Below are positions 23,063-51,238 of a stretch of DNA of 64,000 nt, piece after piece. This DNA is from Eunapius fragilis (lineage: Eukaryota > Porifera > Demospongiae > Spongillida > Spongillidae), in the NCBI GenBank assembly GCA_963681505.1, contig OY811972.1, positions 15,543,110 through 15,607,109 of the forward strand, written 5' to 3'. The position numbers and the translations under genes are program-made. Below the pieces are notes generated by a model. It had not been told where the DNA came from. It did no database searches and was given only the letters and a program-made list of their open reading frames with translations. How positions within the stretch are numbered: position 1 is the stretch's first letter; each line of letters opens with the position of its first letter.

Positions 23063-23908
23063 ATGGCGTCATCAATAGGTCCTTTTGAATCTGAGGAAGA
23101 ATATTGCGATTATTTGTGGACAAACCCGGATGCTTTGATAGCAAGGATCAATGTCTCAAAATCTGAACATAGAAAAAATAGAACCTTGCGAATTTACGAC
23201 CAAGGAAAAGCACCCTGTGTTTACGGGGTGGTGGTCAATAAGAGTATAGTTGATGGTGATAATTATCATTTTTGGAAGCTGCTGAAAATTGGTTGGACAG
23301 GAGTCGATACTACCAGAGATAATATATTATCTCTGATACTACACCTTCTGCGACTAAGCAGGCAGCAGCTCCTACCGCTACGACGAGTAAGCCGGCGACC
23401 AAACCCCCACCAAACAGGATGGAGACAATAACAAGGGAAGCACATAGATGGTGCTCAGAACAAAAAAATAATCGATAAAGATGACGAAACGCCGGTAAGT
23501 ATTTTATTTGTGCTGCGGGTTGCGGGAAAAACAGAAACTGACAAAGATGTGGAAGATAAGGTTAGAAAGGCTTTGGGCCTGCAAGTATGTGATAAGTTAG
23601 GAAAGACGCTGGGTTTTCCTATCCACACTGAGTGGGTTTTTACATCGCAGCCTTATGTTGACCGCATAAAAGAAATGATTGGTGAAAAGGTGTCACTAGA
23701 TGAAGAGTGCACTACTGAGTTACTTTTACAATCATCGTTTGACTTGAGAAAGGTAAACCAAAAGAAACATCCCATTAAAAAACTGCAGATGGGTATACAT
23801 GTATGTATTCGTGAGGGTAAGGATGGATCCTTTGTTGAAGAACAAATAAAAGTAAAGCAAGAGGCACAATGTGCTACCGGCTCTGATAAGAAGTTGAAGA
23901 AAAGTTAG
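23063..23908 (+). pseudogene. Single-exon ORF of unknown function, broken by a 29-base insertion
   Basis: Starts MASSIGPFESEEEYCDYLW and ends KKLKKS; about 270 residues when read through two breaks. First break: a 21-base palindrome at 23314-23334 with 8-base duplicates (GATACTAC, 23306-23313 and 23335-23342) shifts the frame; without it the text runs on as GVDTTPSATKQAAAP. Second break: an A-run near 23462 is one base short for the frame that continues KIIDKDDETPVSILFVLRV. The segment FWKLLKIGWTGVDTT then VLRVAGKT...DKDVEDKVRKALG loosely recalls GIY-YIG-type domains, but I cannot assign it. It lacks introns. Confidence 0.5.
23314..23334. mobile_element. 21-base micro-element with 8-bp GATACTAC duplication
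   Basis: The perfect palindrome core (CAGAGATAAT...ATTATCTCT) is flanked by exact 8-base direct repeats. Three further members occur at 34759, 42257 and 50721. The 8-bp duplication and CAGAG start resemble hAT elements. Confidence 0.75.
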
Positions 23909-25779
23909 TATTTGAAACGAAGATAGGAAGACGGCAAATATAAGAACCTTCATGCAGTATGTAATGTGTATAGATGTGCATGGGTTCATGCTGCCAAATT
24001 AAATTTATTTGATTGCTTTATACCCATCACTGCACGATCTATAAATTAGTCAAGCTGAGCCACGTGGTCTTTGTGAGGATGCTTCTACCTCTACCTTAAA
24101 AGTGAATTCAAGCATCTTTCCCATTTCACATTAGATATCAACCTATAAGCATGACTTTGCCATTCATCATGAGGTGCAAATAAAATTGTTGCCCACTGAG
24201 TAAGTAGTAACCAATTGCCTGCTTGGCAAGTAAAGGCTACTTTGAATTCTTTAAGTTGTGTAGTGTAGATTGACCTTATGCTAGGTGTGAGGCCTGTCCA
24301 TTCCATGCAGCTATTTTTTTTCTCCACCAGAAACTGCACGAAGCTATTCATAATCCATGCAAACACCACAAATGCCTTTAACTCACGAAACACCATGGTC
24401 ACGTCATCCTCTGCTGCCTCATCCTTCATGGCCCTGTTTTTCCCCTGCACCACAGACTCTTCTACCAATGTCTACTCTCTCCAGCTCACCATCACTACTC
24501 TTTTGAGTTCAGCAATCTTCTCCACTACAAACAAGCGTCTCCTCCCTCATCGCAATCTCTCTCATGTTCTCCCTTGTTCCATTGCTATAATCTGCTCACT
24601 TAACTCCATTGTTATAAAATGCATACCAGCTAACAACCACCCACCTCCACCCCATCACCAAGTCCAGGTCTACTGAACAATCTCCACATCTAACAAGCAA
24701 CTATGCAGCATCAATAACTCCACCCACACCAAGTCTGGTCCATTGAAATGACAACCTACATATCTGACAACTATTCACCCGCCTCCACCACCCATACCAA
24801 TTAAAGTCTTGGTCTATTGAACAATCATCACATCTGACAACCATCACTAACTATCCCATCACCAAATTAAACTATTTCCAAATCTGGCTGGCCCACTTCA
24901 GGACTAACACTGGTCACACACAATATCCCATTGCCACCACCAACTTCACCTTTTGAGAGGACTTCAAGGTACAAACGATTTTTACCCACAGATGAACAGT
25001 GACTGTATTTCACGATTTTTTCACCAAACCAATACGGTCAGATTGGCAGCTTTGACGGGTGGCTGCCTTGGATTCGCCCAGTCCCTAAATATAAGACTAT
25101 TACATTTACACTTTATTAACACAGCTTTGGCTCCACTAAGTTACTCTCTGTTGCCTTGACGCCACAGCCTAGTCTGGCTTCCTTCATGGCCCCTTTCTCC
25201 CTCTGCACCACGGTCTCTTCTGCCACCATGCACTCCCCCTCCCTTGAGCTCTCTATCACACCAACACTGTCTCCACTACACTCCCTCACCAGGATCTCCT
25301 CCCACAATGGCCATCCTACCACCAACTTCTTCTCCTTGATCTCCTCCTTGTTCCTTCTTTACTTAAATCTCTTTCACCATGGTCCTGTCTTCCTCTGCCA
25401 TCGTGGTTACCTTCATAGCCCTGTTTTGTCTCCTCCCTAAGTGAGGTCTCCTCCCTCATCGCAATCTCTTTCACCCTCTCCCTTGTTCCATTGCTACAAT
25501 CTGCTCACTTAACTCCATTGTATAAACATAACACTTAAGTTCAGCTAACAACCACCCACCTCCACCTCATCACCAAGCCATCACCAAGCCAGAACGCACC
25601 ATCACAAATTCCACCCACACCATGCCCAGGTCTATTGAAATAATTTCATCGTTTGTAGGGACCCCTATTCTCTTCAAGCACAAATGAGTTTTACCCCCCT
25701 AATCGTTCAGGTCAACAGAAGCCATATCCTAGCACCAGCAACACTGGAAGGTCATCAAGATCATGTACAATCTAGGCTG
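23909..25779. other. Gene-free region with a diverged internal duplication
   Basis: Segments around 24500-24625 and 25430-25530 share long matches (CTCCTCCCTCATCGCAATCT, CTCACTTAACTCCATTGT), indicating an old duplication. ORFs on either strand are short and unrecognisable. Confidence 0.5.
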
Positions 25780-28700
25780 TAGGACCATGTGTACAGTGGT
25801 GCGTACAGTAGGACCATGTGTACAGAGGTGTGTACAGTAGGACCATGTGTACAGTGGTGTGTACAGTAGGGCCATGTGTACAGTGGTGTGTACAGTAGGG
25901 CCATGTTTACAGTGGTGTGTACAGTAAGACCATGTGTACAGTGGTGTGTACAGTGGGACCATGTGTACAGTGGTGTGTACAGTAGGACCATGTGTACAGT
26001 GGTGTGTACAGTAGGACCATGTGTACAGTAGGACCATGTGTACAGTGGTGTGTACCGCAGGACCATGTGTACAGTGGTGCGTACAGTAGGACCATGTGTA
26101 AGTAAGATCATGTGTACAGTGGTGTGTACAGTAGGACCATGTGTACAGTGTTGTGTACAGTAGGACCATGTGTACAGTGGTGTGTACAGTAGGACCATGT
26201 GTACAGTGGTGCGTACAGTAGGACCATGTGTACAGAGGTGTGTACAGTAGGACCATGTGTACAGTGGTTTGTACAGTAGGACCATGTGTACAGAGGTGTG
26301 TACAGTAGGACCATGTGTACAGTGGTGTGTACAGTAGGGCCATGTGTACAGTGGTGCGTACAGTAGGACCATGTGTACAGAGGTGTGTACAGTAGGACCA
26401 TGTGTACAGTGGTTTGTACAGTAGGACCATGTGTACAGTGGTGTGTACAGTAGGACCATGTGTACAGTGGTGTGTACAGTAGGACCATGTGTACAGTGGT
26501 GTGTACAGTAGGACCATGTGTACAGTGGTGTGTACAGTAGGACCATGTGTATAGTGGTGTGTACAGTAGGACCATGTGTACAATAGGACCATGTGTACAG
26601 TAGGACCATGTGTACAGTGGTGTGTACAGTAGGACCATGTGTACAGTGGTGTGTACAGTAGGACCATGTGTACAGTGGTGTGTACAGTAGGACCATGTGT
26701 ACAGGGGTGTGTACAGTGGGACCATGTGTACAGTGGTGTGTACAGTAGGACCATGCGTACAGTGGTGTGTACAGTAGGACCATGTGTACAGTAGGACCAT
26801 GTGTACAGTGGTGTGTACAGTAGGACCATGTGTACAGTAGGACCATGTGTACAGTGGTGTGTACAGTAGGACCATGTGTACAGTGGTGTGTACTGTAGGA
26901 CCATGTGTACAGTGGTGTGTACAGTAGGACCATGTGTACAGTGGTGTGTACAGTAGGACCATGTGTACAGAGGTGTGTACAGTAAGACCATGTGTACAGT
27001 GGTGTGTACAGTGGGACCATGTGTACAGTGGTGTGTACAGTAGGACCATTCGTACAGTGGTGTGTACAGTAGGACCATGTGTACAGTGGTGTGTACAGTA
27101 GGACCATGTGTACAGTGGTTTGTACAGTAGGACCATGTGTACAGTGGTTTGTACAGTAGGACCATGTGTACAGTGGTGTGTACAGTAGGGCCATGTGTAC
27201 AGTTGTGTGTACAGTAGGACCATGTGTACAGTGGTTTGTACAGTAGGACCATGTGTACAGTGGTGTGTACAGTAGGGCCATGTGTACAGTGGTGTGTACA
27301 GTAGGGCCATGTGTACAGTTGTGTGTACAGTAGGACCATGTGTACAGTGGTTTGTACAGTAGGACCATGTGTACAGTGGTGTGTACAGTAGGACCATGTG
27401 TACAGGGGTGTGTACAGTAGGACCATGTGTACAGTAGGACCATGTGTACAGTGGTGTGTACAGTAGGACCATGTGTACAGTGGTGTGTACTGTAGGACCA
27501 TGTGTACAGTGGTGTGTACAGTAGGACCATGTGTACAGTGGTGTGTACAGTAGGACCATGTGTACAGAGGTGTGTACAGTAAGACCATGTGTACAGTGGT
27601 GTGTACAGTGGGACCATGTGTACAGTGGTGTGTACAGTAGGACCATTCGTACAGTGGTGTGTACAGTAGGACCATGTGTACAGTGGTGTGTACAGTAGGA
27701 CCATGTGTACAGTGGTGCGTACAGTAGGACCATGTGTACAGTGGTGTGTACAGTAGGGCCATGTGTACAGTGGTGTGTACAGTAGGACCATGTGTACAGG
27801 GGTGTGTACAGTGGGACCATGTGTACAGTGGTGTGTACAGTAGGACCATGCGTACAGTGGTGTGTACAGTAGGACCATGTGTACAGTAGGACCATGTGTA
27901 CAGTGGTGTGTACAGTAGGACCATGTGTACAGTAGGACCATGTGTACAGTGGTATGTACAGTAGGACCATGTGTACAGTGGTGTGTACAGTAGGGCCATG
28001 TGTACAGTGGTGTGTACAGTAGGGCCATGTGTACAGTGGTGTGTACAGTGGGACCATGTGTACAGTGGTGTGTACAGTAAGACCATGTGTACAGTGGTGT
28101 GTACAGTAGGACCATGTGTACAGTGGCATGTACAGTAAGACCATGTGTACAGTGGTGTGTACAGTGGGACCATGTGTACAGTGGTGTGTACAGTAAGACC
28201 ATGTGTACAGTGGTGTGTACAGTAGGACCATGTGTACAGTGGCATGTACAGTAAGACCATGTGTATAGCGGTGTGTACAGTAGGACCATGTGTACAGTGG
28301 TGTGTACAGTAGGACCATGTGTACAGTGGTGTGTACAGTAGGACCATGTGTACAGTAGGACCATGTGTACAGAGGTGTGTACAGTAGGACCATGTGTACA
28401 ATGGTGTGTACAGTAGGACCATGTGTACAGTGGTGTGTACAGTAAGACCATGTGTATAGCGGTGTGTACAGTAGGACCATGTGTACAGTGGTGTGTACAG
28501 TAGGACCATGTGTACAGTGGTGTGTACAGTAGGACCATGTGTACAGTAGGACCATGTGTACAGTAGGACCATGTGTACAGTGGTGTGTACAGTAGGTCCA
28601 TGTGTACAGAGGTGTGTACAGTAGGACCATGTGTACAGTGGTGTGTACAGTAGGACCATGTGTACAGTGGTGTGTACAGTAGGACCATGTGTACAGTGGT

Positions 28701-29245
28701 TTGTACAGTAGGACCATGTGTACAGTGGTGCGTACAGTAGGACCATGTGTACAGTGGTGTGTACAGTAGGACCATGTGTACAGTGGTGTGTACAGTAGGA
28801 CCATGTGTACAGTGGTGTGTACAGTAGGACCATGTGTACAGTGGTGTGTACAGTAGGACCATGTGTACAGTGGTGTGTACAGTAGGACCATGTGTACAGT
28901 GGTGTGTACAGTAGGACCATGTGTACAGTGGTGTGTACAGTAGGACCATGTGTACAGTGGTGTGTACAGTAGGACCATGTGTACAGTGGTGTGTACAGTA
29001 GGACCATGTGTACAGTGGTGTGTACAGTAGGGCCATGTGTACAGTAGGACCATGTGTACAGTGGTGTGTACAGTAGGACCATGTATACAGTGGTGTGTAC
29101 AGTAGGACCATGTGTACAGTGGTGTGTACAGTAGGACCATGTGTACAGGGGTGTGTACAGTAGGACCATGTGTACAGTGGTGTGTACAGTAGGACCATGT
29201 GTATAGTGGTGTGTACAGTAGGACCATGTGTACAATGGTGTATTG
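25780..29245. repeat. 29-bp minisatellite, about 3.5 kb
   Basis: Well over 100 units of a 29-base repeat (GTACAGTAGGACCATGTG + TACAGTGGTGT), with many shortened units where one half is lost. Because 29 is not a multiple of three and the unit lacks minus-strand stops, all three minus frames stay open for more than 1000 codons with a 29-residue period. I regard these as non-coding. The array ends just before the USP-like exon. Confidence 0.95.
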
Positions 29246-29261
29246 AATAATAGCATTTGTA

Positions 29262-32133
29262 AAAATAGACAATCTCCCTCCTGTCACAAAGAGGCAAGTT
29301 TTTATTCCACATATCATATCATTCGTTCCTTTGATTACTCACTTATCCACCAAGGACAACACTGACCATGGTGCACTGCTGGACATCTCAAGAAGGGCAA
29401 ACAAAGGTCTTGAGAACAAAGCGATAATTTGTTGTCTAAATGCTGCACTACAAGCCATTGCAACAACACCACTGCACTTTATGTTGAAAGGTAATGCAGT
29501 TTAAAATACAATACGCTAATTTTTTCACTCCGTATTTTAGCTATCAATGCACCTAGTCTATCTGCAATCCAAGAAGCTTATTTGAGAGTAATGGATGAAC
29601 TTGAAAACAACACAACCATTCCATGTGACCCTACATGCCTAGCTGTGAGATAATGCGATTTGAAGTGTATGTTTATTATGCACTGACTTCTAACAGATTG
29701 CAATAAGTGAGGAGACAAGGGATCTTAACTATGGTGTACAAAATGATTGCTCAGAAGGGATCATGTTCTTGCTTGATAAACTTCTAGTTCAGCATATTTA
29801 TAACATTCTTTTTTTGTTTAGGAAATCAAGTGCACTGATCAATTCTCAACCATGATACGGAAGTAATCCAATTGTTGTTCTAAGGTTCGAATGTCCCTTT
29901 ATACCCAAGTTATAAATATCCCATGTAGTCTGATTGTGAAGCAACTTCATGGCCAGTGATATCATGCATCATTGATGAAGACTGCAATTCTACAAGTATC
30001 AATTGTTTACTAAATGATTAGACTGGTTAGATGAATACATGAGTTCAATGAAAGGGCCTCAAGTGTTATAGACATAAAAGCATGCAGCATTCCTATTCCA
30101 ATGGAGTTTTTCTAATAGTGTTTGTAAAGTTTGCAACACATGACTCAGCATGCAAACAAGAGAAATCTTTTTTCCTGCAGTATTGATTCTTCATTGTGAC
30201 AGGGCATCACGATCTAGCAACATAAATTTGCAAAATACAGTCAAACTGCCAAGGTTAAATAGCATTGGTTAGATCATCATTTCATCCTTGCACATGTATC
30301 TTCTCAAAGATCCTTTCAAATGACTCATACATGCTCCAAAAGGAGCCCAGTGTATGTGCTTAGTGCCTTTGTGGTAATATTGACAAATGACTATGCAACA
30401 GTTCATTTAATACACTTTATAAACCATAGATTCATCATGGCAAATATTCCAACTCTGGACATTGTAACTTGTCTTCCTCACATTTAATAATGTTCATTCA
30501 CAACAGATACTTGTGTAGTGAGGAGTAAGAACGAATGGATTAACTACAATGATACGACTGCAAATGTTAATTCATCACCAATTTTTAACACTTCGTCTTT
30601 AGTTGAGGTAAGATTATCAGTAATTTTTGCTTGTCCCGCAATAACAGAGTGCTACACATATGCATATATGTATTTGTAAGCAAATTTAATTTATGAATTG
30701 CATATTTTAGAAGAATTTCTGCATTGCTGTATACACATCTGTAATGACAACAGTGAATTAAAATCAGTAAACATGACCTTACATGATTATTAATTGTCCT
30801 GAAGGCAATTGTTGCCAAAAGTGACAGTGGTTTTCAATCCGAAGAAGGCTTGCTGCAAAGTGTTTTGTAAGTGTGTTTGGATGCATAAATGTTAATAACC
30901 ATACAAATTTATGTTTATAGAATTATACTGGTTTGGCTCTGCAAATTGAAGCCAAGGTACGTTTCTGTCATTCCGTGGAATGCAATCATTGCATCAGTTC
31001 ATAGTTATATCAGAAATTGCCAGTGGGATTTAGAAAACTCAAGAACTGGCCAATGTTTGGATTCTAAGGTGGATTCTATAATTCAATGCTGAGCATATAA
31101 TATTACATTGTACTTGCTTTTCAGCATACGTGAATCTTCTGCAGTCAAGTGGAATAAAAGTAAACCATTTTGAGGGTTAGAAATATTATAAATACATCAC
31201 ATGATCACATGCAGATGGGGAAAAATATCATTTGTTTCGATCCCTCATTTTTGCCTGTATTCAAATCTAGAGGATATCATGCAATTCGAAGACATTCCAA
31301 GGTACACCTTATTGTTTATCATCAGGTGTTAATACTTACTCATTTCATGTAGGGCAAAAACATTTTTCAGTGTGATGCACTGTTTTTCCCTATACACAAA
31401 CCTCAGCATTGGAGTCTATTGGTTAGCTATTATTTATGCATTCACCACATATGTGTATTGTTCATTCCACTCAATGTAATTTATGGTGTATTTACTATTC
31501 CTTCGATCGATGCAGATTGTGCACGTGAAAACACACACCATTCATTGCATAGACTCATTACGTTACAGTGATAAAGATGCATTGAATTGGATTTGGTGAG
31601 ATTGTGTTTTCAACTACTTGCACTATGCACACATTTCTAAATAAGGTTGTGCCTCTGTGAGGAAACAAGATATCGATTGAAGACCCACATATCAGTTGCA
31701 GTCAACGATAAACAAATGCAAAATGTTATTGATTTTCAACCACTGCAGTGTACTATTGCTTCTTTACCATTGCAACGAAATGCTGTTGACTGTGGAGTTT
31801 TTCTGTGCTTTGTAAATAAATTTATTGTACTTATTCTACTGCTACTTAATGTATGTATCCAATAGGCAGCAAGGCTGAATTTGGAGGAATTTTCATACCT
31901 CCATACAGAGAGTTTGCAAAATCACTGGATTGCATGGTGCATTCACATGACTTGTAATTCAACACAGGACATGGTGGAAAGGTATAGAATGCAAATGGTC
32001 TATGAGCTCTCACAAGGAGAGCTATACCCATTACAAGCAGCAGAAGGTATTTATAACATGTCATGCATCATAAATTAATCTTTTTTTTTTAGACAAGCAT
32101 GCAAGACCAGCCTATCATGATCATTTCAGTTAA
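29262..32133 (+). CDS. Multi-exon gene with USP-like (C19) then Ulp1-like (C48) protease regions
   Basis: USP part: Cys box KGLENKAIICCLNAALQAI (29401-29460), an LNYGVQNDCSEGIMFLLDKLL block like the USP QQDAHEF motif (29728-29785), and EWINYNDTTANV like the end of the His box (30533-30570). Ulp1 part: FFPIHKPQHWSLL with the catalytic His (about 31385-31423), IVHVKTHTIHCIDSL with Asp, and RNAVDCGVFLCF with the catalytic Cys (about 31770-31815). The exons from 31311 to the stop at 32131-32133 join in correct phase. Exon borders at 29880-30520 and 30880-31200 do not all keep frame, so part of the gene may be decayed or misread. It would cleave ubiquitin- or SUMO-like conjugates; a transposon origin is possible. 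The first exon is not identified (open from about 29247). Confidence 0.6.
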
Positions 32134-33163
32134 GAATAAGTGTGCACAAAGTGTCCCTACAACTTCTAGTGACGGTCGCATTTGCAGCAATGCGTCATAC
32201 AGTGATAATGGTGATGGTAGCAATGCTGATTGTAGTGGTGATGAAAGATGTGGTGCCACTGCTGATGCTGACATTATTGTCAGTGATGATACAGATGGTG
32301 AAGACAATGAGAATATTAGTAGCTCCAATGAACCTGGTGATGATAGTGATTCTGCTGAGAGCTCTGAAGACAATGATAACTCTGACAAAGACACGACAAT
32401 ACTCATTCCAACATACGTGAACACTCCAGACTATGACGATGTATGTGCAACTGAAGTGGGGAAGGGAACATTACCTCAGATTCTTTCCATCTATGAAAAG
32501 GCCTCCCTACAGGTAAGGAGTTAATAAAGATTATGTAAAGCAAAATATATACTATCCCAGCTTTTTAAAAAAGTGAAACTCAATGCCCATTTACAAGAGA
32601 ACTGATAAGAGAAACTGTGAAGGAATTTGAGGTACAATTTGAGTATAATCTTTTAAATAAATAAATAAATAAATATATGGAATTTTTTTTACCTATTCTA
32701 GCCTACTATACGAGGAATTATCAGTGGTCATGTAAGATCAAAGTACCTTAAGAACACCAAAACTGTGGAAAAAATTCTAAAACCTAATCCGAATTGGCCA
32801 TTTCAAAATTGTCAAGATATGGTATGTCTACTATACCTATACAATATAATGGTGTCTGCTAGTGTTGTGCCTCACTCTTATGTTAACAGGCATCAGAGAT
32901 CCAACTATACTTAAGTGAGGTAGAGAGTGACGAAAGAGGAAGTGCTTCTGTACTATTTAGTCATATAAGCAAGTTCATTATTTGGCCAGAGGTACTGTAC
33001 ATTTGTAGCAATTTGTGTATACAGTTGGTATTAATGCCTTCAGGTTGTCACCAATCTTATCATGAAGCGGTTCAGCATTACGCAATCCAAAACAATTGAA
33101 CATTTTTATGCTCCAGACTCTACCATGACTTTTTTTTTTCTAGCGTCATACAGTGCAGACTAG
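32099..33163 (+). CDS. Acidic multi-exon ORF overlapping the end of the protease gene
   Basis: Starts at the ATG at 32099, in a different frame from the last protease exon, and runs 141 codons to 32521 with a strongly acidic Asp/Glu/Ser tract (VSDDTDGEDNENISSS). Further exons bounded by AG and GT look open: 32702-32821 (PTIRGIISGHVRSKYLKN), 32891-32992 (ASEIQLYLSEVESDERG) and about 33046-33163 (VVTNLIMKRFSITQSKTIEH, ending YSAD). The junction near 32575-32632 is uncertain. I do not recognise the protein. It may be a separate gene or the frame-shifted C-terminal part of the preceding one. Confidence 0.4.
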
Positions 33164-33403
33164 AGTATGTATGCGTTTTTACACTGCGCCACCTTCTCGT
33201 TTTCGTTAGTCGTACGGCTAACCATATTCATCATTCATTTTTTAAAAACACAATACATTGCCAATATACACAAAATAAGAATAACGTTGTAAGAAACTAA
33301 AGCCTATTGGATGATTGTAGGAAGTGATGCCCCATCGTCAAAGAATAGTCCACTCCTCCACTTTACCCCAGATCCCCTTAGACACAATCTTGATGATCGA
33401 ACC

Positions 33404-34750: not shown

Positions 34751-34758
34751 GGTCTTAT

Positions 34759-34773
34759 CAGAGATAATTCTCT
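34759..34773. mobile_element. 15-base micro-element with perfect 8-bp GGTCTTAT duplication
   Basis: CAGAGATAATTCTCT is flanked by GGTCTTAT on both sides (34751-34758 and 34774-34781). It shares termini with the micro-elements at 23314, 42257 and 50721. Confidence 0.75.
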
Positions 34774-35389
34774 GGTCTTATTAATAGCGCTGCGAATACG
34801 CCCCCTTTATCCAACCACGGAAGATTTAGTTCCTATAGCTAGCAGCATCTCCACGCCCTGCCTATACTTCTTACCTTCTTCTTACACATGTATTTGTCAT
34901 ACCAAATCACCATAACCATATCCATTGACACGTTACAAATGCATGATGGTGTGAGCCTACAGAAGAGCATCAATCCAAACTATGTACCTTTGCTTTTGTC
35001 TCACAGCAGAAAATGGTGTGTTCACTGACAGATCTAAGATGAGTTATCATGGTATGGTGGGGATTAGGATAACTGCACTCCTCCCTTCAAGTCATACATG
35101 TACCGACTAGGACATCAGACTCGCTGCAAGGTTCAGATGATCTAAATTTGGGAAGGGAGGAGTGCAGTTATCCTAATTTGGATTGATGCTCTTCTGTAGG
35201 CTCACACCATCATGCATTTGCAACGTGTCAATGGATATGGTTATGGCGATTTGGTATGACAAATGTGCAAGAAGAAGGTAAGAAGTATAGGCAGGGCGTG
35301 CATGGAGATGCTGCTAGCCTTAATTATAGGAACTAAATCTTTCGTGGTTGGATACAGGGGGCGTATTCGCAGTGCTATTAATAAGACCA
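34774..35389. repeat. Large fold-back: about 210-base inverted arms
   Basis: 34774-34984 and 35170-35389 are inverted copies with small differences, sharing ATTGATGCTCTTCTGTAGGC and GGGGGCGTATTCGCAGTGC-type blocks. A second, inner inverted pair (GGATTAGGATAACTGCACTC) lies at about 35066 and 35150. The right arm ends 190 bases before the start codon of membrane-protein copy 3. Confidence 0.75.
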
Positions 35390-35579
35390 CAACATTTTCA
35401 ACATCCTATGAATATTACAACGGTACTGAAGTCTATCGACTGACAGTTATGTTAAAGTCAATGAATGTTGCTTCTACGAGGTGCGAAAAGTCTCCACTTG
35501 CGAGTCCCCCCAGGCCCTGTATTAAATATCTATGGCACGATTCTCTTACTACGCCACTTATACAGGGTCGCGCGAGAAA

Positions 35580-37390
35580 ATGAAGCACACGGCGCACCTG
35601 CTCACATCAGCGCTACTCGTTGCGGCGCTGAGCGTCTCCGTGGCAACGGGGGACGACTGCTCGTGCGAACACACGGTGTGCGTGTACGAGCTGATGAAGA
35701 CGGCCCTGCAAACCACAACGACGGCAAACGAGCTCCACCAGGCCTTCTTCACCACCATCCCCTTCTTCGACAGTGTCCGCATCTTCACCGCGGTGAACCT
35801 CACCCTCACAGATAGCACCCTCGGCACCAGAACCAGCACCGAGGTGTCCTGGATACACCAGTGGTACCCTTACACCTCCTACGGCGTACTGAGGAAGCTA
35901 TTCCCGGCTGTCTTCAGGGGATCAATGGACCCCTGGACGTCCATCCCCGTGTTATATGAACTGTACGCTAACCAGTACTTCACCCCCGTGGCTCTGAGCA
36001 TCAGCCTCACCTGCACCATCAACTCCACCACCACCAGCACCCTGGGGAATGCAGCCAGCACTGTTGAGTCGAACACCTCTGTCGTTCCCCAGAGTTTGGC
36101 TACTACTGCTGCCCAGAACCGTCCCATCTCCACTGTCACTGCTGTACCAACAACAGATACTAACACAAACACCTTGAAGAACCTAAACCATTTGTGGTCA
36201 AAAACCCTCCAGTGGGTGAGTTATGTATGACACATTGTGGTGACCTCAGGGAGGAGAAAGGGGAGAGAAAGGAGGGAGGAGAAGGGAAAGAATGGGGGTA
36301 CTCTTGTCATGTTCTCAATGTTTCATAGGTCAAATCCTACTCCAGATACAATGGTCCCAACCCTTACCCAAATGATGAGGACAGGGGCATAGCCTACGAC
36401 GTGACGTCTTTCACCACCACAGACCTCCTGGCCTTCTCTCTCTTCAGCGTACTCTACATCCTCTTCAACATTGTGGTGGCCATTGTCGTCATAGCGACAT
36501 CCTCCATGGCCCTCAAATGGCTCTCGGAACAGTCCCAGAAGAAGAGCTATGTATCCTCGCTGTACGGGGCAGCGGCAGGCTTTAGCTGCATGTACTCCTT
36601 TGCCTACTTGTCGTGGAAAGCCTTACTCCTTGGGCTGCGCTCCAGGATTCTGGGACAGATCAAAGATGACGTCATCACCCAGCCATTCAAGATCTTTGAA
36701 ATCATCAGTATGGTGGTACCAGGTGTGATGGTATGCCTGCACTTCATCTACGCCCTCTACATCACCAGGACCCTAAGACATCTTACCTTTGCATTCAAGG
36801 GAGTAGGAGACAAAATGGAGAAAATGACCAATCACCCTTTCATCAGAATGGCTGCCTGGTTTTTATCTGTGTGGTTTCTGATGACTGAGGTGCAGCTGCT
36901 CGCTGCCTCTGCCATACCAGTCCTCGTCTCCCTCCTCACCGACTCCTTCCGCTCCATCGCCCTGTTTGGCATCGCCGGGACGGTCATGGTCTGCTCTGTT
37001 GTTGTCATGGCGATCATCATCCACACTTTCCAGTACTGGGCCACCCACTCAAAATGGCTACTCTTCATCCTTGTCCTGCTGGCTGTGTTTGGACTACTGA
37101 TCGCCGTGTCCTTTGCCATATACTTCCTGGTCATCACCGCCGAAGGCTTCGATTACAACGCCGTCTCTGTGTACATATTTTCTCTCATACCCTCCCTCAT
37201 ACTGGCGGGTGTGGCCTACTTCACAAATAACTATCTGCTGTTGGATGACAAGGATGAGAAAAAGGATGGGGAGGAGGAGAATGAAACGGTGGTGAAGGGT
37301 GTGACAGAGGTGAAGGTGAAGGTGGGAGATGTGATGGAGATGGAGGAGTTCAAGCCAAAGAAAGCCAGACGATTCCGAAGTCACAGTTGA
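35580..37390 (+). CDS. Seven-hydrophobic-segment membrane protein, family copy 3
   Basis: Exons 35580-36215 and 36329-37390 join in phase 0 to give 565 residues. Signal peptide (MKHTAHLLTSALLVAALS), ectodomain cysteines, Ser/Thr stalk and seven hydrophobic segments are preserved. It is very similar to copy 4, and both share features that copies 1 and 2 lack (for example KDEKKDGEEENETV in the tail). The copy is open and probably functional, but the downstream AATAAA of copies 1 and 2 reads AACAAC here. An upstream in-frame ATG (35532) adds 16 residues, less likely because it precedes the signal peptide. Confidence 0.8.
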
Positions 37391-39690: not shown

Positions 39691-39699
39691 CTGCCAACA

Positions 39700-41152: not shown

Positions 41153-41226
<74 letters not shown>

Positions 41227-41273
41227 GCACACACAGTACTAGTGACACGCACGCACGCACACACACACACACA

Positions 41274-41366
<93 letters not shown>

Positions 41367-41690
41367 TTAAATTGCATGGTTTTGGGGGGTGCATGGGTGG
41401 GGGGGGGGGGGGGGGGGGGGGGACAAATTATTCCGAGGGAGGATAAACTATTCCGGAATAGATTACCCGGAGGATCAATTGTTCGGGATAACCTATATCG
41501 TGACAACCGGATTAAGACAGTGGTAGGCCCTGGGCAATTAGCCTTAATGGTACCCCCCCCCCCCCCCCCCTCCCACTCCCACTATTTAACCCATCAAATA
41601 GTAATACTGAAACACTTCTATACTCTATGCGTTAGTTCTCAATTCGCTTAATTAACGCTTATCACATAACCGCTCAATAATATTGTACGT
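39700..41690. other. Mostly unrecognised DNA with AC/GCAC microsatellites
   Basis: Short open stretches around 40560-40680 (DEGYGGNRANILALDILYPE) may be an exon of an unknown gene but are unassigned. A long CA run (41155-41223), a GCAC/CA run (41250-41366), a poly-G run (about 41399-41422) and a poly-C run (about 41553) follow. The large ORFs across them are repeat artefacts. Confidence 0.6.
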
Positions 41691-41975
41691 CCCGTCCGTA
41701 CGAACGTCCGCGTAACTTATTTATGTACTCGGCCTAGCGCCTATTGGTTGCTTGGTACGAGACCTACAGTGTAGCAACCGATAGGAACGACCACCGCCCA
41801 CACATAAGTATATAGCAACGCGTACTTTAATTAGCGACCATGCTTGTACAGGTAATAATCAAAAAATGCCGTAACAATTAACGCAACGCGACATGTACTT
41901 ACTATCTGACAATAATAATTCCATGTATTGCGCGGGCATGTGCGTAGTAACCGTATGTTAGAACAGGTGGTAGAT
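41690..41975 (+). repeat. Direct repeat flanking membrane-protein copy 4 (left)
   Basis: It shares ordered blocks with 44875-45200: GCGTAACTTATTTAT, CCTATTGGTTGCT, a GACCACC...CCCACACA block, GTATTGCGCGGGCATGT and TAGAACAGGTGGTA. It is diverged but collinear and in the same orientation. Confidence 0.65.
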
Positions 41976-42256
41976 TGTATATGCGAGTATGTGTTTAAAG
42001 TAAATTAGAACTTATTGTAAGGGTCTGGGAACCATTTGTATAAATAAATCATAGAATTATCTATGGGTCGGTGTACTTATGGCTAAGTACACCGACAGTT
42101 TTCCTAACACACAATGAATGTGCTTATTTTCTGTATACTGTACGTAGCGGTTATGTCATCCACCCGCAGCTGTGAAAATATGGGCCAGGGTACGAGATTA
42201 CGGTACGGTGCAGCGCGCCACGCCCCCCCCCCCCTCCCTCTGGCACTGCATGCTAG

Positions 42257-42294
42257 CAGAGATAATATATAGAGTTAGGGTTAGGACTATCTCT
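42257..42294. mobile_element. 38-base micro-element containing TTAGGGTTAGG
   Basis: Starts CAGAGATAATATATAGAG and ends CTATCTCT, with TTAGGGTTAGG in the middle. The flanks CATGCTAG and GATGCTAG match in 7 of 8 bases. It belongs with the micro-elements at 23314, 34759 and 50721. Confidence 0.65.
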
Positions 42295-42497
42295 GATGCT
42301 AGGGAGTTCGAGATGGGCAGGCGAGAGATGCGACGTGTCGAAGCCACCCAAGTGCAAGTGAAGAATTACAGGCAGTAACTCATTAAGTGACGTGACGTCC
42401 CTCCCTCAACGCATACGTAATTTTTGAGATCCACTCCCAGTCCGAGTGTTTGGAACGATTCTCTTACTTCGCCACTCATACAGGGTCGCGCGAGAAA

Positions 42498-44476
42498 ATG
42501 AAGCACATGGCCCACCTGCTCACATCAGCGCTACTCGTTGCGGCACTCACAGGAAAAAAAATCGTGTTCCGGACCGTGGGTTTTAACCTATCGACCTTGG
42601 GATCTGTTCCATCAAACGTATTCAAAGTGCCTAAGACAACAGTGAATACATTTGATGGAACAGATCCCAAGGTTGATAGGATAAAACCCAAGGTCCGGAA
42701 CACGATTTTTTTTCCTGTGACTGAGTGTCTCCGTGGCAACGGGGGACGACTGTTCGTGCGAACACACGGTGTGCGTGTACGAGCTGATGAAGACGGCCCT
42801 GTACACCACGACGACGGCAAACGAGCTCCACCAGGCCTTCTTCACCACCATCCCCTTCTTCGATAGCGTCCGCATCTTCACCGCGGTGAACCTCACCCTC
42901 ACAGATAGCACCCTCGGCACCAGAACCAGCACCGAGGTGTCCTGGATACACCAGTGGTATCCTTACACCTCCTACGGCGTACTGAGGAAGCTATTCCCGG
43001 CTGTCTTTAGGGGATCAATGGACCCCTGGACGTCCATCCCCGTGTTATATGAACTGTATGCTAACCAGTACTTCACCCCCGTGGCTGTGAGCATCAGCCT
43101 CACCTGCACCATCAACTCCACCACCACCACTAGCACCCTGGGGAATGCAGCCAGCACTGTTGAGTCGACCACCTCTGTCGTTCCCCAGAGTTTGGCTACT
43201 ACTGCTGCCCAGAACCGTCCCATCTCCACTGTCACTACAACAGGTACTAACACAAACACCTTGAAGAACCTAAACCATTTGTGGTCAAAAACCCTCCAGT
43301 GGGTGAGTTATGACACATTGTGGTGACCTCAGGGAGGAGAGAGGGGAGAGAAAGGAGGGAGGAGGAGAAGGGAAAGAATGGGGGTACTCTTGTCATGTTC
43401 TCAATGCTTCATAGGTCAAATCCTACTCCAGATACAATGGACCCAACCCTTTCCCAAATGATGGGGACAGGGGCATAGCCTACGACGTGACGTCCTTCAC
43501 CACCACAGACCTCCTGGCCTTCTCTCTCTTCAGCGTACTCTACGTCCTCTTCAACATTGTGGTGGCCATTGTCGTCATAGCGACATCCTCCATGGCCCTC
43601 AAATGGCTCTCGGAACAGTCCCAAAAGAAGAGCTACGTCTCCTCGCTGTACGGGGCAGTGGCGGCTTTTAGCTGCGTGTATGCCATAGCCTACTTGTCGT
43701 GGAAAGCCTTACTCCTTGGGCTGCGCTCCAGGCTTCTGGGACAGATCAAAGATGACGTCATCACCCAGGTACTCAAGATCTTTGAGGTCATCAGTGTGGT
43801 GGTACCAGGTGTGATGGTATGCCTGCACTTCATCTACGCCCTCTACATCACCAGGACCCTAAGACATCTTACCTTTGCATTCAAGGGAGTAGGAGACAAA
43901 ATGGAGAAAATGACCAATCACCCTTTCATCAGAATGGCTGCCTGGTTTTTATCTGTGTGGTTTCTGATGACTGAGGTGCAGCTGCTCGCTGCCTCTGCCA
44001 TACCAGTCCTCGTCTCCCTCCTCACTGACTCCTTCCGCTCCATCGCCCTGTTTAGCATCGCCGGGACGGCCATGGTCTGTTCTGTTGTTGTCATGGCGAT
44101 CATCATCAACACTTTCCAGTACTGGGTCACCCACTCAAAATGGCTACTCTTCACCCTTGTCCTGATGGCTGTGTTTGGACTACTGATCGCCGTGTCCTTT
44201 GCCATATACTTCCTGGTCCTCACCGCCGAAGGCTTCGATTACAACGCCGTCTCTGTGTACATATTTTCTCTCGTACCCTCCCTCATACTGGCGGGTGTGG
44301 CCTACTTCACAAATAACTATCTGCTGTTGGATGACAAGGATGAGAAAAAGGATGGGGAGGAGGAGAATGAAACGGTGGTGAAGGGTGTGACAGAGGTGAA
44401 GGTGAAGGTGGGAGATGTGATGGAGATGGAGGAGTTCAAGCCAAAGAAAGCCAGACGATTCCGAAGTCTAAGTTGA
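42498..44476 (+). pseudogene. Seven-hydrophobic-segment membrane protein, family copy 4, MITE-disrupted
   Basis: Exon 1 (42498-43302) starts with the family signal peptide (MKHMAHLLTSALLVAAL). A 172-base MITE plus a 3-base duplication (175 bases, not a multiple of three) then interrupts it at 42548, so the mature ectodomain (GDDCSCEHTVCVYELMK onward, from 42739) is out of frame with the signal peptide. Exon 2 (43415-44476) is fully open and nearly identical to copy 3. Unless an unusual start or splice removes the MITE, no secreted ectodomain can be made. The polyadenylation signal is also altered (AACAAA). The disruption looks recent because the rest of the gene shows no decay. Confidence 0.8.
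42548..42719. mobile_element. 172-bp hairpin MITE with 3-bp ACT duplication
   Basis: The ends CACAGGAAAAAAAATCG and CGATTTTTTTTCCTGTG are inverted, and pairing continues for about 70 bases with a few mismatches. ACT lies on both sides (42545-42547 and 42720-42722). Comparison with copies 1-3, which run through this point uninterrupted, fixes the boundaries. Confidence 0.9.
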
Positions 44477-44719
44477 ACAATGCAACAAAAGATCTAAGAG
44501 AGGCTTGTGTCTCTGTTTGGCAGATTTTTTTAATCATGGGTATTTTATTGTGTGTAGTATCTATAACAGCTAATGTTTCACCAGACCCATACAAGGCTTC
44601 ACTTTGATATGTGTTTACTGCATGGTAGCCAATGTCCCATGTGTAAACCTGTTCAGTCACAACATACAACTTCCACAACCTATACCTCAGCAGCTTAAGT
44701 AACGGGTCCCCAGTCCTTG

Positions 44720-47700
44720 TCACTGTGCCAGACCCCCTCCATCAATGACTAAGGCTGAACCAGTGATTTGTTTGGCTTCGTCCCCACACAACATGGCCAC
44801 AAGCGCAGCAACCTGAGCAGGAAAATGGGAGGGAGAGGGAGGGAGGCGTGTATTAAATACTATAATTTCCAACGTACGTACGTACATACATCTGCGTAAC
44901 TTATTTATATACTCCTATTGGTTGCTAGGTATGCATGCATACCTAGCAACCAATAGGAATGACCACCTCCCACACAAAAGTACATAGCAACGCATACATA
45001 GCAACCATGCTTGCCACAAAACCTACATGCCTGTACAGGCCATCACAATTAAAGCAACGCTATTGTGGTGGTTCACTCTCAAGTCTCATAGTACAGGTCG
45101 AAAACATGTAGTTACTAATAAGTCCATGAAGTATTTGTATTGCGCGGGCATGTTATAGAGGTTGTGTAGTAACCGTATGGTAGAACAGGTGGTAAAGTAA
45201 AAATAATCAGCCCGTGATTTTTCAGGGTAGTAGTATATTCCTCTTAGCACACACCAACAGGTCATTATAATCTACATCCAAGCTCATATCCAGGGCCTTC
45301 CAACATGATGACCCCCTCCTATGTGATTACCTTCGCGTCCGTACTGCCTTACCCATTGTACATGAGTCCCTCCCCAAAGCACTCTCTGCTCTACCCCTCC
45401 TCCCCAAAGCACTCTCTGCTCTACCACTCCTCCCCAAAGCACTCTCTGCCCTACCCCTCCTCCCCAAAGCATTCTCTGCTCTACCCCTCCTCCTCAAAGC
45501 ATTCTCTGCTCTACCCCTCCTCCCCAAAGCACTCTCTGCTCTACCCCTCCTCCTCAAAGCATTCTCTGCTCTACCCCTCCTCCTCAAAGCACTCTCTGCC
45601 CTACCCCTCCTCCTCAAAGCATTCTCTGCTCTACCCCTCCTCCCCAAAGCACTCTCTGCTCTACCCCTCCTCCTCAAAGCATTCTCTGCTCTACCCCTCC
45701 TCCTCAAAGCACTCTCTGCCCTACTCCTCCTCCTCAAAGCATTCTCTGCTCTACCCCTCCTCCCCAAAGCACTCTCTGCCCTACCCCTCCTCCCCAAAGC
45801 ATTCTCTGCTCTACCCCTCCTCCTCAAAGCATTCTCTGCTCTACCCCTCCTCCCCAAAGCACTCTCTGCTCTACCCCTCCTCCTCAAAGCATTCTCTGCT
45901 CTACCCCTCCTCCCCAAAGCACTCTCTGCTCTACCCCTCCTCCTCAAAGCATTCTCTGCTCTACCCCTCCTCCCCAAAGCACTCTCTGCTCTACCCCTCC
46001 TCCTCAAAGCATTCTCTGCTCTACCCCTCCTCCCCAAAGCACTCTCTGCTCTACCCCTCCTCCTCAAAGCACTCTCTGCTCTACCCCTCCTCCTCAAAGC
46101 ACTCTCTGCTCTACCCCTCCTCCCCAAAGCACTCTTTGCCCTACCCCTCCTCCCCAAAGCACTCTCTGCCCTACCCCTCCTCCCCAAAGCACTCTCTGCT
46201 CTACCCCTCCTCCTCAAAGCACTCTCTGCTCTAACCCCTCCTCCCCAAAGCACTCTCTGCTCTACCCCTCCTCCCCAAAGCACTCTCTGCCCTACCCCTC
46301 CTCCTCAAAGCATTCTCTGCCCTACCCCTCCTCCTCAAAGCACTCTCTGCTCTACCCCTCCTCCTCAAAGCATTCTCTGCTCTACCCCTCCTCCCCAAAG
46401 CACTCTCTGCTCTACCCCTCCTCCTCAAAGCACTCTCTGCTCTACCCCTCCTCCTCAAAGCACTCTCTGCTCTACTCCTCCTCCTCAAAGCACTCTCTGC
46501 TCTACCCCTCCTCCCCAAAGCACTCTCTGCTCTACCCCGCCTCCTCAAAGCACTCTCTGCTCTACCCCTCCTCCCCAAAGCACTCTCTGCCCTACCCCTC
46601 CTCCCCAAAGCACTCTCTGCTCTACCCCTCCTCCTCAAAGCATTCTCTGCTCTACCCCTCCTCCCCAAAGCACTCCTACCCCTCCTCCTCAAAGCATTCT
46701 CTGCTCTACCCCTCCTCCTCAAAGCATTCTCTGCCCTACCCCTCCTCCTCAAAGCACTCTCTGCTCTACCCCTCCTCCCCAAAGCACTCTTTGCCCTACC
46801 CCTCCTCCCCAAAGCACTCTCTGCCCTACCCCTCCTCCCCAAAGCACTCTCTGCTCTACCCCTCCTCCTCAAAGCACTCTCTGCTCTAACCCCTCCTCCC
46901 CAAAGCACTCTCTGCTCTACCCCTCCTCCCCAAAGCACTCTCTGCCCTACCCCTCCTCCTCAAAGCATTCTCTGCCCTACCCCTCCTCCTCAAAGCACTC
47001 TCTGCTCTACCCCTCCTCCTCAAAGCATTCTCTGCTCTACCCCTCCTCCCCAAAGCACTCTCTGCTCTACCCCTCCTCCTCAAAGCACTCTCTGCTCTAC
47101 CCCTCCTCCTCAAAGCACTCTCTGCTCTACTCCTCCTCCTCAAAGCACTCTCTGCTCTACCCCTCCTCCCCAAAGCACTCTCTGCTCTACCCCGCCTCCT
47201 CAAAGCACTCTCTGCTCTACCCCTCCTCCCCAAAGCACTCTCTGCCCTACCCCTCCTCCCCAAAGCACTCTCTGCTCTACCCCTCCTCCTCAAAGCATTC
47301 TCTGCTCTACCCCTCCTCCCCAAAGCACTCCTACCCCTCCTCCTCAAAGCATTCTCTGCTCTACCCCTCCTCCTCAAAGCATTCTCTGCCCTACCCCTCC
47401 TCCCCAAAGCACTCTTTGCCCTACCCCTCCTCCTCAAAGCATTCTCTGTCCTACCCCTCCCCCCATATGCATATCCTGTTGCCTACTGTCAGAGGACCCA
47501 CATAATCACACCTACCTCACTTGGCATGACAAATTCTCCTGTGGGTTGACCCAAGAGCAATCTGGTCTGGGGATGGGGAATAGATATAGGTGTTACATAT
47601 ACCTTGCAAAGGACACCCCATCACTTTATTACCTTGGCCTCCTCATACGAGACACCCCCATCACTTTATTACCTTGGCCTCCTCATAAGACACCCCATCA

Positions 47701-50487
47701 CTTTATTACCTTGGCCTCCTCATAGGAGACACCCCATCACTTTATTACCTTGGCCTCCTCATACGAGACACCCCATCACTTTATTACCTTGGCCTCCTCA
47801 TAGGAGACATCCCATCACTTTATTACCTAGGCCTCCTCATAGGAGACATCCCATCACTTTATTACCTTGGCCTCCTCATACGAGACACCCCATCACTTTA
47901 TTACCTTGGCCTCCTCATAGGAGACATCCCATCACTTTATTACCTAGGCCTCCTCATACGAGACACCCCATCACTTTATTACCTAGGCCTCCTCATAGGA
48001 GACACCCCATCACTTTATTACCTTGGCCTCTTCATAGGAGACATCGTCCCTCTTCATGATGGCCTCAAGCTGTGGTACCACCACTGCACACATTCACACA
48101 CACACACACACATAAACACACACACACATACATGAGGAATAATAGAGGATACCCACACACACATACACACACACACACATACACACACTAGTTAGGTATG
48201 TTCATCACTTGGCTATGAGAGTATCTCCAAAATCATCAACTCAACTTGCCTGGAAGGGGGGGGGGGGGGGGGGGGGGGCTGGCTCATGTAATCTTACATA
48301 GCTAGCCCACATGGTGGTGTCAGTTAACGTAGCTCACATGATCTCAGGCCATAGCTCACATGATCTCAGACAATAGCTCACATGATCTCAGGCAATAGCC
48401 CACATGATCTCAATAGCTCACATGATCTCAGGCAATAGCTCACATGATCTCAGGCAATAGCTCACATGATCTCACAACATTGCCTACATGGGGTAAGGAC
48501 GAATCCTGGACAGATGGCATTGCATGTGACTCCACTGCCAGCCATTTCCAAGGCAACAGCCTAAGATTGGAAGGAATAGAAATGTTAAAACTGTCCCACC
48601 TTCTCCCTACCTCCCTACACTCTCTCTCTTCCTCCCACCCCCATCCCTTACATCACACCCACACTACTCACTCCCACCTTTGTCATTCCAACCACGCCAT
48701 GTTTGGTTGCTACGTAGGGGACCTTATTGATGGCCCCTGATAGACCCAAGTCTGAGGCAATGTTAACAATCCTTCCCCACCCTATGGGGAAGAGAGGGGG
48801 TAGGAGAAAGAGAAGAGGAGGAGGAGGAGGAGGAGGAGGAGGAGGAGGAGGAGGAGGAGGAAGAAAGAGGATAATGAGAGATGAAATGTAAGTATAGTGG
48901 TATATACACTTCACCAACACTTATAACCATGTAGGGTGTGCTCCAATTAGAAGGGGCTCACCTCTCTCCTTCATCTCCTTCACGGCCAGGCGAGTGGTGT
49001 GGAAGGGAGCAGTTAGGTTTATGGCCACCATTTTGTCCCACATGTGGACAGGGTAGTCCTCCAGAGGTGCGACGTACTGTATTCCTGGGGGAGGAGTAGG
49101 TGGAAGGAGGGACAAAGGGTGTGATACAGAGTTGGCAAGTTTTATTATTGTAATGTGATGTGGTAATCATATGATACATTCAGACACATACATGGCTAGA
49201 AAGACATGTATTTATATAAATAAAGCATTCAATCTTTTTTTACAAATGCCCAAGTAGGAAGGGAGGATGTCTCTTGTCTGAATTGACCCCCCACCCCAAC
49301 CCTGCACAGCCCCTGAGAGTCATTGCTGAAGGTGGTGGTTGAAACAAATACAATGTAACTACATTTTTAAAATTAAGATGTGCATCCTGTGAGTGTGTTG
49401 AGTGAAAAGTGCTGACAGTATGAGACCCCACTATGACCCGAGGTATGAGACCCCACTATGACCCCACTATGACCCGAGGTATGAGACCCCACTATGACCC
49501 GAGGTATGAGACCCCACTATGACCCCACTATGACCCGAGGTATGAGACCCCACTATGACCCGAGGTATGAGACCCCACTATGACCCCACTATGACCCGAG
49601 GTATGAGACCCCACTATGACCCCACTATGACCCGAGGTATGAGACCCCACTATGACCCGAGGTATGAGACCCCACTATGACCCGAGGTATGAGACCCCAC
49701 TATGACCCGAGGTATGAGACCCCACTGTGACCCGAGGTATGAGACCCCACTATGATCCGAGGTATGAGACCCCACTATGACCCGAGTTATGAGACCCCAC
49801 TATGACCCCACCATGACCCGAGGTATGAGACCCCACTATGACCCGAGGTATGAGACCCCACTATGACTCGAGGATTAAAAACAGTACTTAAAATGAAGGT
49901 GGTGTGCACATCACATCAGTACATTTAACATTGGTTATTGAGGTAGTGTTATAATTTATCAAACAAATTCTGTTAGCCCAACAGATTATTTACAACCTGT
50001 AACAGAACTGGAAAAAACATGGCCGCCGCTCTTCCCGGGATGACAACCTCTCTGTATCTATGTCATAGATATTAGAGCACTCTGATATCTATGGCCTATA
50101 TTGACCACTCGTTCCCTTTTCTCACTACACCGACGTAGCGCTGAACGAAACAATAACCTTCCATCGTCACGTCCTAACCGTTTTAATACCTAACCCACCG
50201 CTTACCTGCTTACCCGCATTGTTCACCAGTACGTCGGGGCCTCGACCAAACTTCTCCCGCACAAATTCGAACATTTGGACTATCTGCTTCACGTCCGTGA
50301 GGTCTGCACCGTGGTATTCGACCTTTTTCGCGCCCTTTTCCTTGCAATCCTTCACCACCTGTTCTATCTCCGCGGGAGTGCCGAACCCGTTTACGACGAC
50401 ATTGTAGCCACTCCCTGCTAGTTTTAGAGCTATTTCCCTGCCTATCCCGCTGGTGGAACCAGTTACCAGCGCTAACATATCAGCCAT
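44720..50487 (-). CDS. D-beta-hydroxybutyrate dehydrogenase, bacterial-type SDR, complete
   Basis: Seven exons on the minus strand: 50487-50214, 49084-48962, 48781-48678, 48560-48488, 48083-48022, 47566-47516 and 44812-44720. All phases join: 780 bases, 259 aa, the usual size of the bacterial-type enzyme that interconverts 3-hydroxybutyrate and acetoacetate with NAD(H). Motifs: nucleotide-binding VTGSTSGIG near residue 10; VNNAG at about 88-92; IQYVAPLEDYP; VNIASDLG; YVATKHGVVG with the catalytic Tyr and Lys; TCNAICPGFVLTPL; GQPTGEFVMPSE; and KQITGSALVIDGG. I chose the ATG at 50487, in line with family length. Intron 6 (2.7 kb) is filled by a 30-bp minisatellite, and the exon 5 donor lies in a 38-bp array. 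It is convergent with membrane-protein copy 4. Confidence 0.93.
44875..45200 (+). repeat. Direct repeat flanking membrane-protein copy 4 (right)
   Basis: Partner of 41690-41975, inside the last BDH intron. It contains a small perfect hairpin (CCTATTGGTTGCTAGGTATG and its inverse). Confidence 0.65.
45364..47457. repeat. 30-bp minisatellite in BDH intron 6, with higher-order duplication
   Basis: About 70 units (CTCTGCTCTACCCCTCCTCC + CCAAAGCACT, with C/T variants). A block of about 655 bases is duplicated: the rare variant GCTCTAACCCC occurs at about 46230 and 46885, followed by the same order of variant units. The 30-base period keeps frames open, which explains the long Ser/Lys/His and Arg/Ala ORFs. 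Confidence 0.95.
47611..48035 (-). repeat. 38-bp minisatellite repeating the BDH exon-5 end and splice donor
   Basis: Eleven or so units, each (minus strand) made of the last 19-20 exonic bases CTCCTATGAGGAGGCCAAG, the donor GTAATAAAGTGATGGG and back again. The unit nearest exon 5 is the real exon end (48022). In the BDH frame, reading past any unit meets a TGA after GTAATAAAG, so retaining extra units would truncate the protein. Confidence 0.92.
49425..49875. repeat. 25-bp minisatellite in BDH intron 1
   Basis: Units of GACCCCACTATGACCCGAGG + TATGA, alternating with units carrying an extra CCCACTATGA segment; about 15-20 copies. Confidence 0.9.
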
Positions 50488-50544
50488 TTGTTTAAAACCA
50501 CACGTCACCTCAGCTCCCAATCCGAGTGGTCTGAATGGGAATTG

Positions 50545-50662
50545 GTCTCGTACCCAGACTCAAATGTACGTAACGATGATCATGTATGACATCACGTACA
50601 GATGTCATGTCATACTGTAAGCGATGATCATCGTTACGTACATTTGGGTCTGGGTACGAGAC
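50545..50662. mobile_element. Hairpin MITE, TAGTCTCGTACCC family, upstream of BDH
   Basis: GTCTCGTACCCAGACTCAAA and the right end are inverted with few or no mismatches over about 50 bases per arm. Flanks AATGGGAAT and AATGGGAGT match in 8 of 9 bases, agreeing with the 9-bp duplication of the 33404 element. It lies 58 bases upstream of the BDH start codon. Confidence 0.75.
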
Positions 50663-50720
50663 TAAATGGGAGTGACCTTTGCCGTAAGAATAAATCCGTA
50701 ACGCCGCCGATGGGCAGTGC

Positions 50721-50741
50721 CAGAAATAATATATTATCTCT
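50721..50741. mobile_element. 21-base micro-element with 8-bp duplication (GGCAGTGC/GGCAGTAC)
   Basis: CAGAAATAAT...ATTATCTCT differs in one base from the one at 23314. Flanking 8-mers match in 7 of 8 positions. It is the fourth member of this family in the window. Confidence 0.7.
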
Positions 50742-51238
50742 GGCAGTACTACGTTTCCAACACGTCTGCGTCACGGCTCACGGCTCTGTACTCTGATTAT
50801 TTTGACACTTCTAATACGTACAACGCCGTTTATTATTATTATTTTTAATAATCTGAACCAGCGGCAGCAGGTTCAATATAGGATTGATTGAATGTCATTA
50901 ATAAAACTTCACTATCGTCTGGAGGGACAACGGAGAAACGGATCGTTTATCTTTATATCGCGATGGAATGAGAGCTACAGTTCTACGTTGGTTCCGTGTC
51001 ATAAAACGGTGTGGTTATAGAGAAACTAACAATTTCCTGTTTCTTGTGCCCAGTCCTAAAATTCTTGGTCGTCGTATTCCTATTCTTCTTCTTATAACTC
51101 GAGCTACGAACGCTTTTGAAGAACGGCAATAGTACCAATCACTTCGAAATTTACCGGCACGTTATCCTTACATGTTCTATTTAATAATTATATACAATAG
51201 ATTTTTATTAATAATTTTAGGCAGTATAAATACTCTAA

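Follow-up and report, generated by a model that had tools for sequence, protein, structure and literature searches.

The window and its micro-insertions

The window is the whole stretch of 64,000 nucleotides analysed here, from the sponge Eunapius fragilis (assembly GCA_963681505.1, contig OY811972.1, positions 15,543,110 to 15,607,109 of the forward strand). Long minisatellite arrays fill much of it (9940-10653, 25779-29241, 45369-47460 and 58743-64000), the last being a 32/66-bp array, partly palindromic, built on CTCCTGCAGGAG. A two-gene cassette of long open frames is present in four copies (1865-3709, 13988-16104, 35532-37390 and 42733-44476); the copy at 35532-37390 matched no Pfam family above the cut-off. 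The window also contains three foldbacks (34775-35389, 42544-42723 and 50542-50665), the second of which lies inside a copy of the cassette.

Four micro-insertions of 15-38 bases with 8-bp target duplications had been described at this locus in a sequence-only reading. All four sequences are present. When the complete ends, CAGAGA...TCTCTG, are counted, the insertions at sites 1-4 measure 22, 16, 39 and 22 bp and the duplication is 7 bp; the eighth base had come from placing the last G of the element in the repeat. The flanking 7-mers are exact at three of the four sites. Site 1 reads atactac CAGAGATAATATATTATCTCTG atactac (7-mers in lower case here and below), with ATACTAC at 23307-23313 and 23336-23342 and the 22-bp insertion at 23314-23335. 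Site 2 reads gtcttat CAGAGATAATTCTCTG gtcttat, with GTCTTAT at 34752-34758 and 34775-34781 and a 16-bp insertion at 34759-34774 that consists of one tip of 10 nt and one of 6 nt. Site 3 reads atgctag CAGAGATAATATATAGAGTTAGGGTTAGGACTATCTCTG atgctag, with ATGCTAG at 42250-42256 and 42296-42302. Its insertion comprises, on the plus strand, a left tip CAGAGATAATATATAGA (42257-42273) and a filler GTTAGGGTTAGG (42274-42285), followed by AC and the 8-nt right tip TATCTCTG (42286-42295). Site 4 reads gcagtgc CAGAAATAATATATTATCTCTG gcagtac, a 22-bp insertion at 50721-50742 with one substitution in its left end (CAGAAA), between GCAGTGC (50714-50720) and GCAGTAC (50743-50749), which agree at 6 of 7 positions. 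An empty counterpart of site 2 is found within the first foldback (arms 34775-34982 and 35174-35389). The left-arm tip holds site 2 and its right duplication; at the right-arm tip, GGTCTTATTAATAGC, GTCTTAT occurs once. No empty site for site 3 was found among the paralogous gene copies in the window.

A scan that assumed no particular sequence covered the 46,470 bp of the window that lie outside tandem arrays; it required exact inverted ends of 6 bp, a length of 10-60 bp and flanking 7-mers differing at no more than one position, and gave four matches. Sites 1-3 are the matches whose 7-mers are exact. The remaining one, with a single mismatch, is an unrelated foldback; site 4 is absent because its end is substituted. 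A general scan of the window was swamped by the tandem arrays. A looser scan, which asked for a CAGAG-type start and flanking 7-mers, returned many matches in the arrays and a few elsewhere that lack parent-like tips; such tips occur at the four sites only. Removal of the insertion at 23314 had been offered as independent support, on the grounds that it restores an ORF. Removal does shift the frame, so that 44 codons of Pro/Thr/Ala-rich sequence precede a stop, yet with the insertion in place the frame is likewise open for 38 codons. Neither frame is decisive, and the restored ORF was rejected as evidence of insertion.

Genome-wide matches and the parent element

The genome (218,937,333 bp in 24 contigs) contains 714 matches to the pattern CAGAGATAN{0,30}TATCTCTG and none to the reversed control; insertions with shorter tips are missed because the pattern demands 8 nt of tip on each side. 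Flanks were compared in the first 50 matches listed, all on contig C1, two of which overlap (L123); removal of 7 flank-similar duplicates left 43. The flanking 7-mers are identical at 22 of the 43 and differ by at most one mismatch at 29, and the other 14, with two or more mismatches, are without clear duplication. Shuffling of the right flanks within the sample gave a mean of 0.56 identical 7-mers and a maximum of 4. The observation holds up and exceeds chance. The duplicated 7-mers favour GT at the start and AC at the end. The commonest length is 26 bp (16/43), and 31 of the 43 need no filler while 12 carry it. A particular 22-mer and a particular 26-mer are each found at many places, with duplications that differ. 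Two loci, L007 and L121, have identical flanks in inverted orientation around cores of 26 and 30 bp; they represent a single scar site that was duplicated as part of a larger repeat and whose centre changed afterwards. The 22-mer had no match in viral contigs, and a gapped 22-base pattern was found at 5 loci in three bacterial genomes among the bacterial and archaeal genomes searched. When the letters of the ends were searched for in the literature, none of the titles listed concerned transposons.

A one-ended search for CAGAGATAATATATAGA followed by any base except T gave, genome-wide, 225 matches on one strand and 226 on the other, a few of which, site 3 included, are scars. Among the first 100 matches listed are many facing pairs of ends, mostly 0.8-5 kb apart; those separated by 0.8-1.7 kb are apparently long non-autonomous copies. 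Ten long pairs were read at both ends. They share a 29-nt inverted repeat, CAGAGATAATATATAGAGGGATTGGAAAC or a near variant, each end starts with CAGAGATAATATATAGAGGGATTGG(A/C)AAC or a near variant, and exact 7-bp duplications flank nine of the ten. These copies have what is expected of the P superfamily: a terminal inverted repeat CA...TG in all ten, a target duplication of 7 or 8 bp (7 bp in the nine) and, between the inverted repeats of copy L134, P-type transposase domains. L134 (C1:14970809-14975773; 4,965 bp) matches PF21787 (E 4.7e-15), PF21789 (E 9.8e-9) and PF21788 (E 0.00069, below its cut-off) in separate pieces and separate frames, a reading in which introns and lesions are not told apart. 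When one piece of the L134 transposase was searched by sequence against solved structures, no transposase was returned, the one match having an E value of 0.85.

PF21787 has 57 matches across the genome and was found in none of 14 control genomes. On C1 and C2 it occurs at 14 distinct places (16 rows), 6 of which have a parent repeat within 2.5 kb; two of those 6 (L023 and L024) are identical copies. Transposase copies at three different places (L029, L031 and L039) are ~99% identical over 3.4 kb, which suggests recent movement, and L029 lies near a parent-type end.

The idea that these are transposon termini set between target duplications and belonging to a family is borne out. Their assignment to hAT, with 8-bp duplications, has very little to commend it. 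CAGAG ends do resemble hAT ends. A duplication length of 7 bp would not in itself speak against such elements, which have 8-bp duplications in general and a 7-bp duplication, as here, in hAT7 of rust fungi (PMC12730594, as far as its available text goes). Against hAT, only 2 of the first 25 matches read have exact 8-mers in the register first proposed, compared with 15 of 25 exact 7-mers. The 8-bp duplication thus does not characterise these 25 matches, and the one parent copy examined for a transposase, L134, gave no hAT domain: no hAT family appeared among the Pfam matches (E up to 0.01) of its six translated pieces. The long elements bounded by these termini have P-superfamily domains beside or between the ends. 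The parent of the micro-insertions is a P-superfamily transposon, not hAT, because the same ends carry 7-bp duplications and P-superfamily domains.

The 17-nt limit and the proposed joining of ends

The tips of the micro-insertions end at a sharp limit. Genome-wide, 113 matches have tips of exactly 17 nt and 4 have tips of at least 18 nt, both counts including copies that lie within larger repeats; a single 26-bp product, CAGAGATAATATATAGATTATCTCTG, accounts for 61 of the 100 listed 17-nt matches. Of 86 arms in the C1 sample, 12 end at 17 nt, none at 16 and none at 18 or beyond. One of the 4 longer-tip matches is site 3, where the left tip equals nucleotides 1-17 of the parent repeat exactly and the eighteenth base, G, begins the filler; the remaining three allow a reading of 17 nt followed by one or two more bases. 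The Drosophila P transposase cuts at the element end on one strand and 17 nt inside on the other (PMC7776569), and the donor ends left by P excision carry 17-nt 3' overhangs (PMC2895639), according to the text available from these sources. The parent transposase may likewise make a 17-nt staggered cut with 3' overhangs at the donor site. The agreement between the tip limit and the Drosophila P stagger is the main argument that each micro-insertion is, in all probability, the scar left by excision of a P-superfamily transposon. Extrapolating from the sample, the genome appears to hold several hundred such scars.

Excision would leave such scars in the following way. An element inserts and generates the 7-bp duplication, as is seen at the long copies. 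The transposase would then cut one strand at the element end and the other 17 nt inside, so that each side of the gap would retain one 7-bp copy and a single-stranded 3' tip of 17 nt, CAGAGATAATATATAGA; this step draws on the 17-nt limit and on Drosophila P. The identical tips could form an imperfect 8-nt duplex that takes in both 3' ends, giving 26 bp, or could pair via the 6-nt run TATATA or ATATAT, with trimming of flaps, giving 24 or 22 bp. Fill-in and ligation, probably by end joining of the polymerase-theta type, would yield duplication, tip, tip and duplication in that order, with filler sometimes added first.

The pairing of two identical CAGAGATAATATATAGA overhangs was computed, and the best registers overlap by 8, 10 and 12 nt, for products of 26, 24 and 22 bp; we infer that these registers are the ones used. 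In the 8-nt register, TATATAGA, both 3' ends are paired, with 6 pairs and 2 A.G mismatches. Among 50 listed of the 83 26-mers, 39 keep the version of one strand at both mismatches, 11 are the A/T palindrome and none is the C/G palindrome; our reading of these classes is that the mismatches were resolved from one strand, or that the 3' GA ends were trimmed and refilled. The insertion at site 1 is the product expected of two parent tips pairing via ATATAT. The same calculation on the Drosophila tip gives products of 30 and 32 bp. Table 1 of PMC2895639, a source available in part, describes P repair junctions as duplication, tips joined at AT or TA, and duplication, and includes AT and TA junctions of lengths 30 and 32 bp in 14 and 5 isolates. 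The main core types fit what two 17-nt overhangs would give when annealed and joined.

These patterns bear on two further explanations. One is that the palindromes of 16-39 bp are themselves ultra-short mobile elements, a kind of nano-MITE cut and pasted by a P-type transposase. Their number (714 matches), the 7-bp duplications around them and the fact that the same 22-mer and the same 26-mer turn up at many places, between differing duplications, are all compatible with mobility. It is nevertheless improbable. A MITE has a homogeneous internal sequence that is copied between sites, whereas among the 43 sampled insertions the centres vary in length and content around constant tips of at most 17 nt. 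The boundary at 17 nt (113 against 4) would be unexpected for an element whose parent repeat is 29 nt, and the recurrent cores are predicted by the pairing of overhangs. Movement of P elements also needs internal transposase binding sites, for which these palindromes have no room. The Drosophila P element contains such sites (PMC7776569, available text). The earlier suggestion of integration of almost nothing but termini is most likely wrong for the same reason, that the tips stop at 17 nt within a repeat of 29.

The other explanation, slightly less probable still, is internal deletion of long copies by interrupted gap repair with both ends retained. P-type elements of Drosophila do form internally deleted copies in this manner, and the filler at 12 of 43 centres would agree with it. 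Interrupted repair gives no reason to stop at 17 nt, where the counts fall from 113 to 4. Excision scars account for both features: tips capped at 17 nt and centres that match end joining indicate elements that were leaving, not arriving.

At site 3, the two telomere-type repeats GTTAGGGTTAGG stand directly after the full 17-nt tip. The telomere type was judged from contig C3, which has TTAGGG arrays near both of its ends, since the contig ends of C1 and C2 (4 x 300 bp) are without TTAGGG. Telomerase could have extended the 3' overhang at this site, a reading suggested by one case. Four tandem TTAGGG units were matched, with overlaps counted, 1331 times on one strand and 719 times on the other. 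Many of the matches listed are in short tracts inside chromosomes, and such interior tracts may reflect telomere repeats added at breaks. No earlier report of genomic P-type scars, or of telomere filler, was recognised among the papers listed in literature searches, which does not imply that none is in print.

Comparison with other P-type families

A second P family is present in the genome, with terminal inverted repeat CAAGGATTATTAACTATTACATGGATTGG and repeat CAAGGATTATTAACTATTACATGGATTGGAATCCG (copies L021 and L022). The copy on C3 is flanked by the 7-bp duplication GTTCAAG, read by eye. Copy L022, with L156/L157 (G000:C7:8227542-8236985), has a complete right inverted repeat and a left one that is missing ~15 outer nt, as if the end had been lost in cutting or insertion. 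Micro-scar matches of this family number 129 genome-wide. Most of the places listed were rejected as independent events, since among the 24 read the 28-, 35- and 36-mers lie in repeats with the same flanks; several of the 24 go back to a few events copied inside larger repeats. The independent scars with duplications keep 14/14, 13/15, 21/8 and 22/17 nt of tip, the last two sharing 1 and 2 nt. The 17-nt limit is not seen in the second family: at least 21 nt remain in two of the few scars that are independent, and these few suggest a tip limit of ~21 nt.

The motif GGATTGG is common to both families, and the limit would fall one base before it in each, as judged from two events in the second. 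It is conceivable, if somewhat doubtful, that P-type transposases place their inner cut relative to a conserved internal motif, GGATTGG in these families, and not to the element end, with AGA^G-GGATTGG at 17 nt and ACA^T-GGATTGG at ~21 nt. Under this tentative proposal, the scars would form a genome-wide fossil record of germline repair of 3' overhangs, telomerase sometimes adding telomere repeats to the tip before joining. The cut position of THAP9 is not given in the available text of PMC8230255 or PMC10983969.

The long 17-nt staggered cut has been described as unusual for Drosophila P (PMC7776569, available text). The natural scars point to the same 17 nt in another P-type family with another duplication length, and because the same number emerges from them, the geometry of the cut may be readable from sequence alone. 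Since two known 17-nt 3' overhangs would be the starting material for every scar, the set amounts to a large natural experiment on end joining, in which annealing register, choice at mismatches, flap trimming, filler and telomere capture may be counted without laboratory work. It also carries a warning that palindromic micro-insertions with target duplications can pass for tiny transposons.

The closest known counterparts are the repair junctions of Drosophila P{wa}, as they are described in the available text of PMC2895639. These likewise consist of a duplication, remnants of 17-nt 3' tips joined at self-complementary AT/TA, sometimes filler, and a duplication. They arose in the laboratory, at a single site in repair-mutant flies, and have 8-bp duplications, whereas the scars described here are natural, lie at many sites, belong to another P-type family and have 7-bp duplications. 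Galileo of Drosophila is also a member of the P superfamily with mostly 7-bp duplications, of consensus GTANTAC (PMC4168063, PMC2775673, both available in part). As in Galileo, GT and AC are favoured at target positions 1-2 and 6-7, but the middle of the target here is not clearly A-N-T. Galileo has long inverted repeats, whereas the inverted repeat shared by the parent elements in E. fragilis is ~29 nt.
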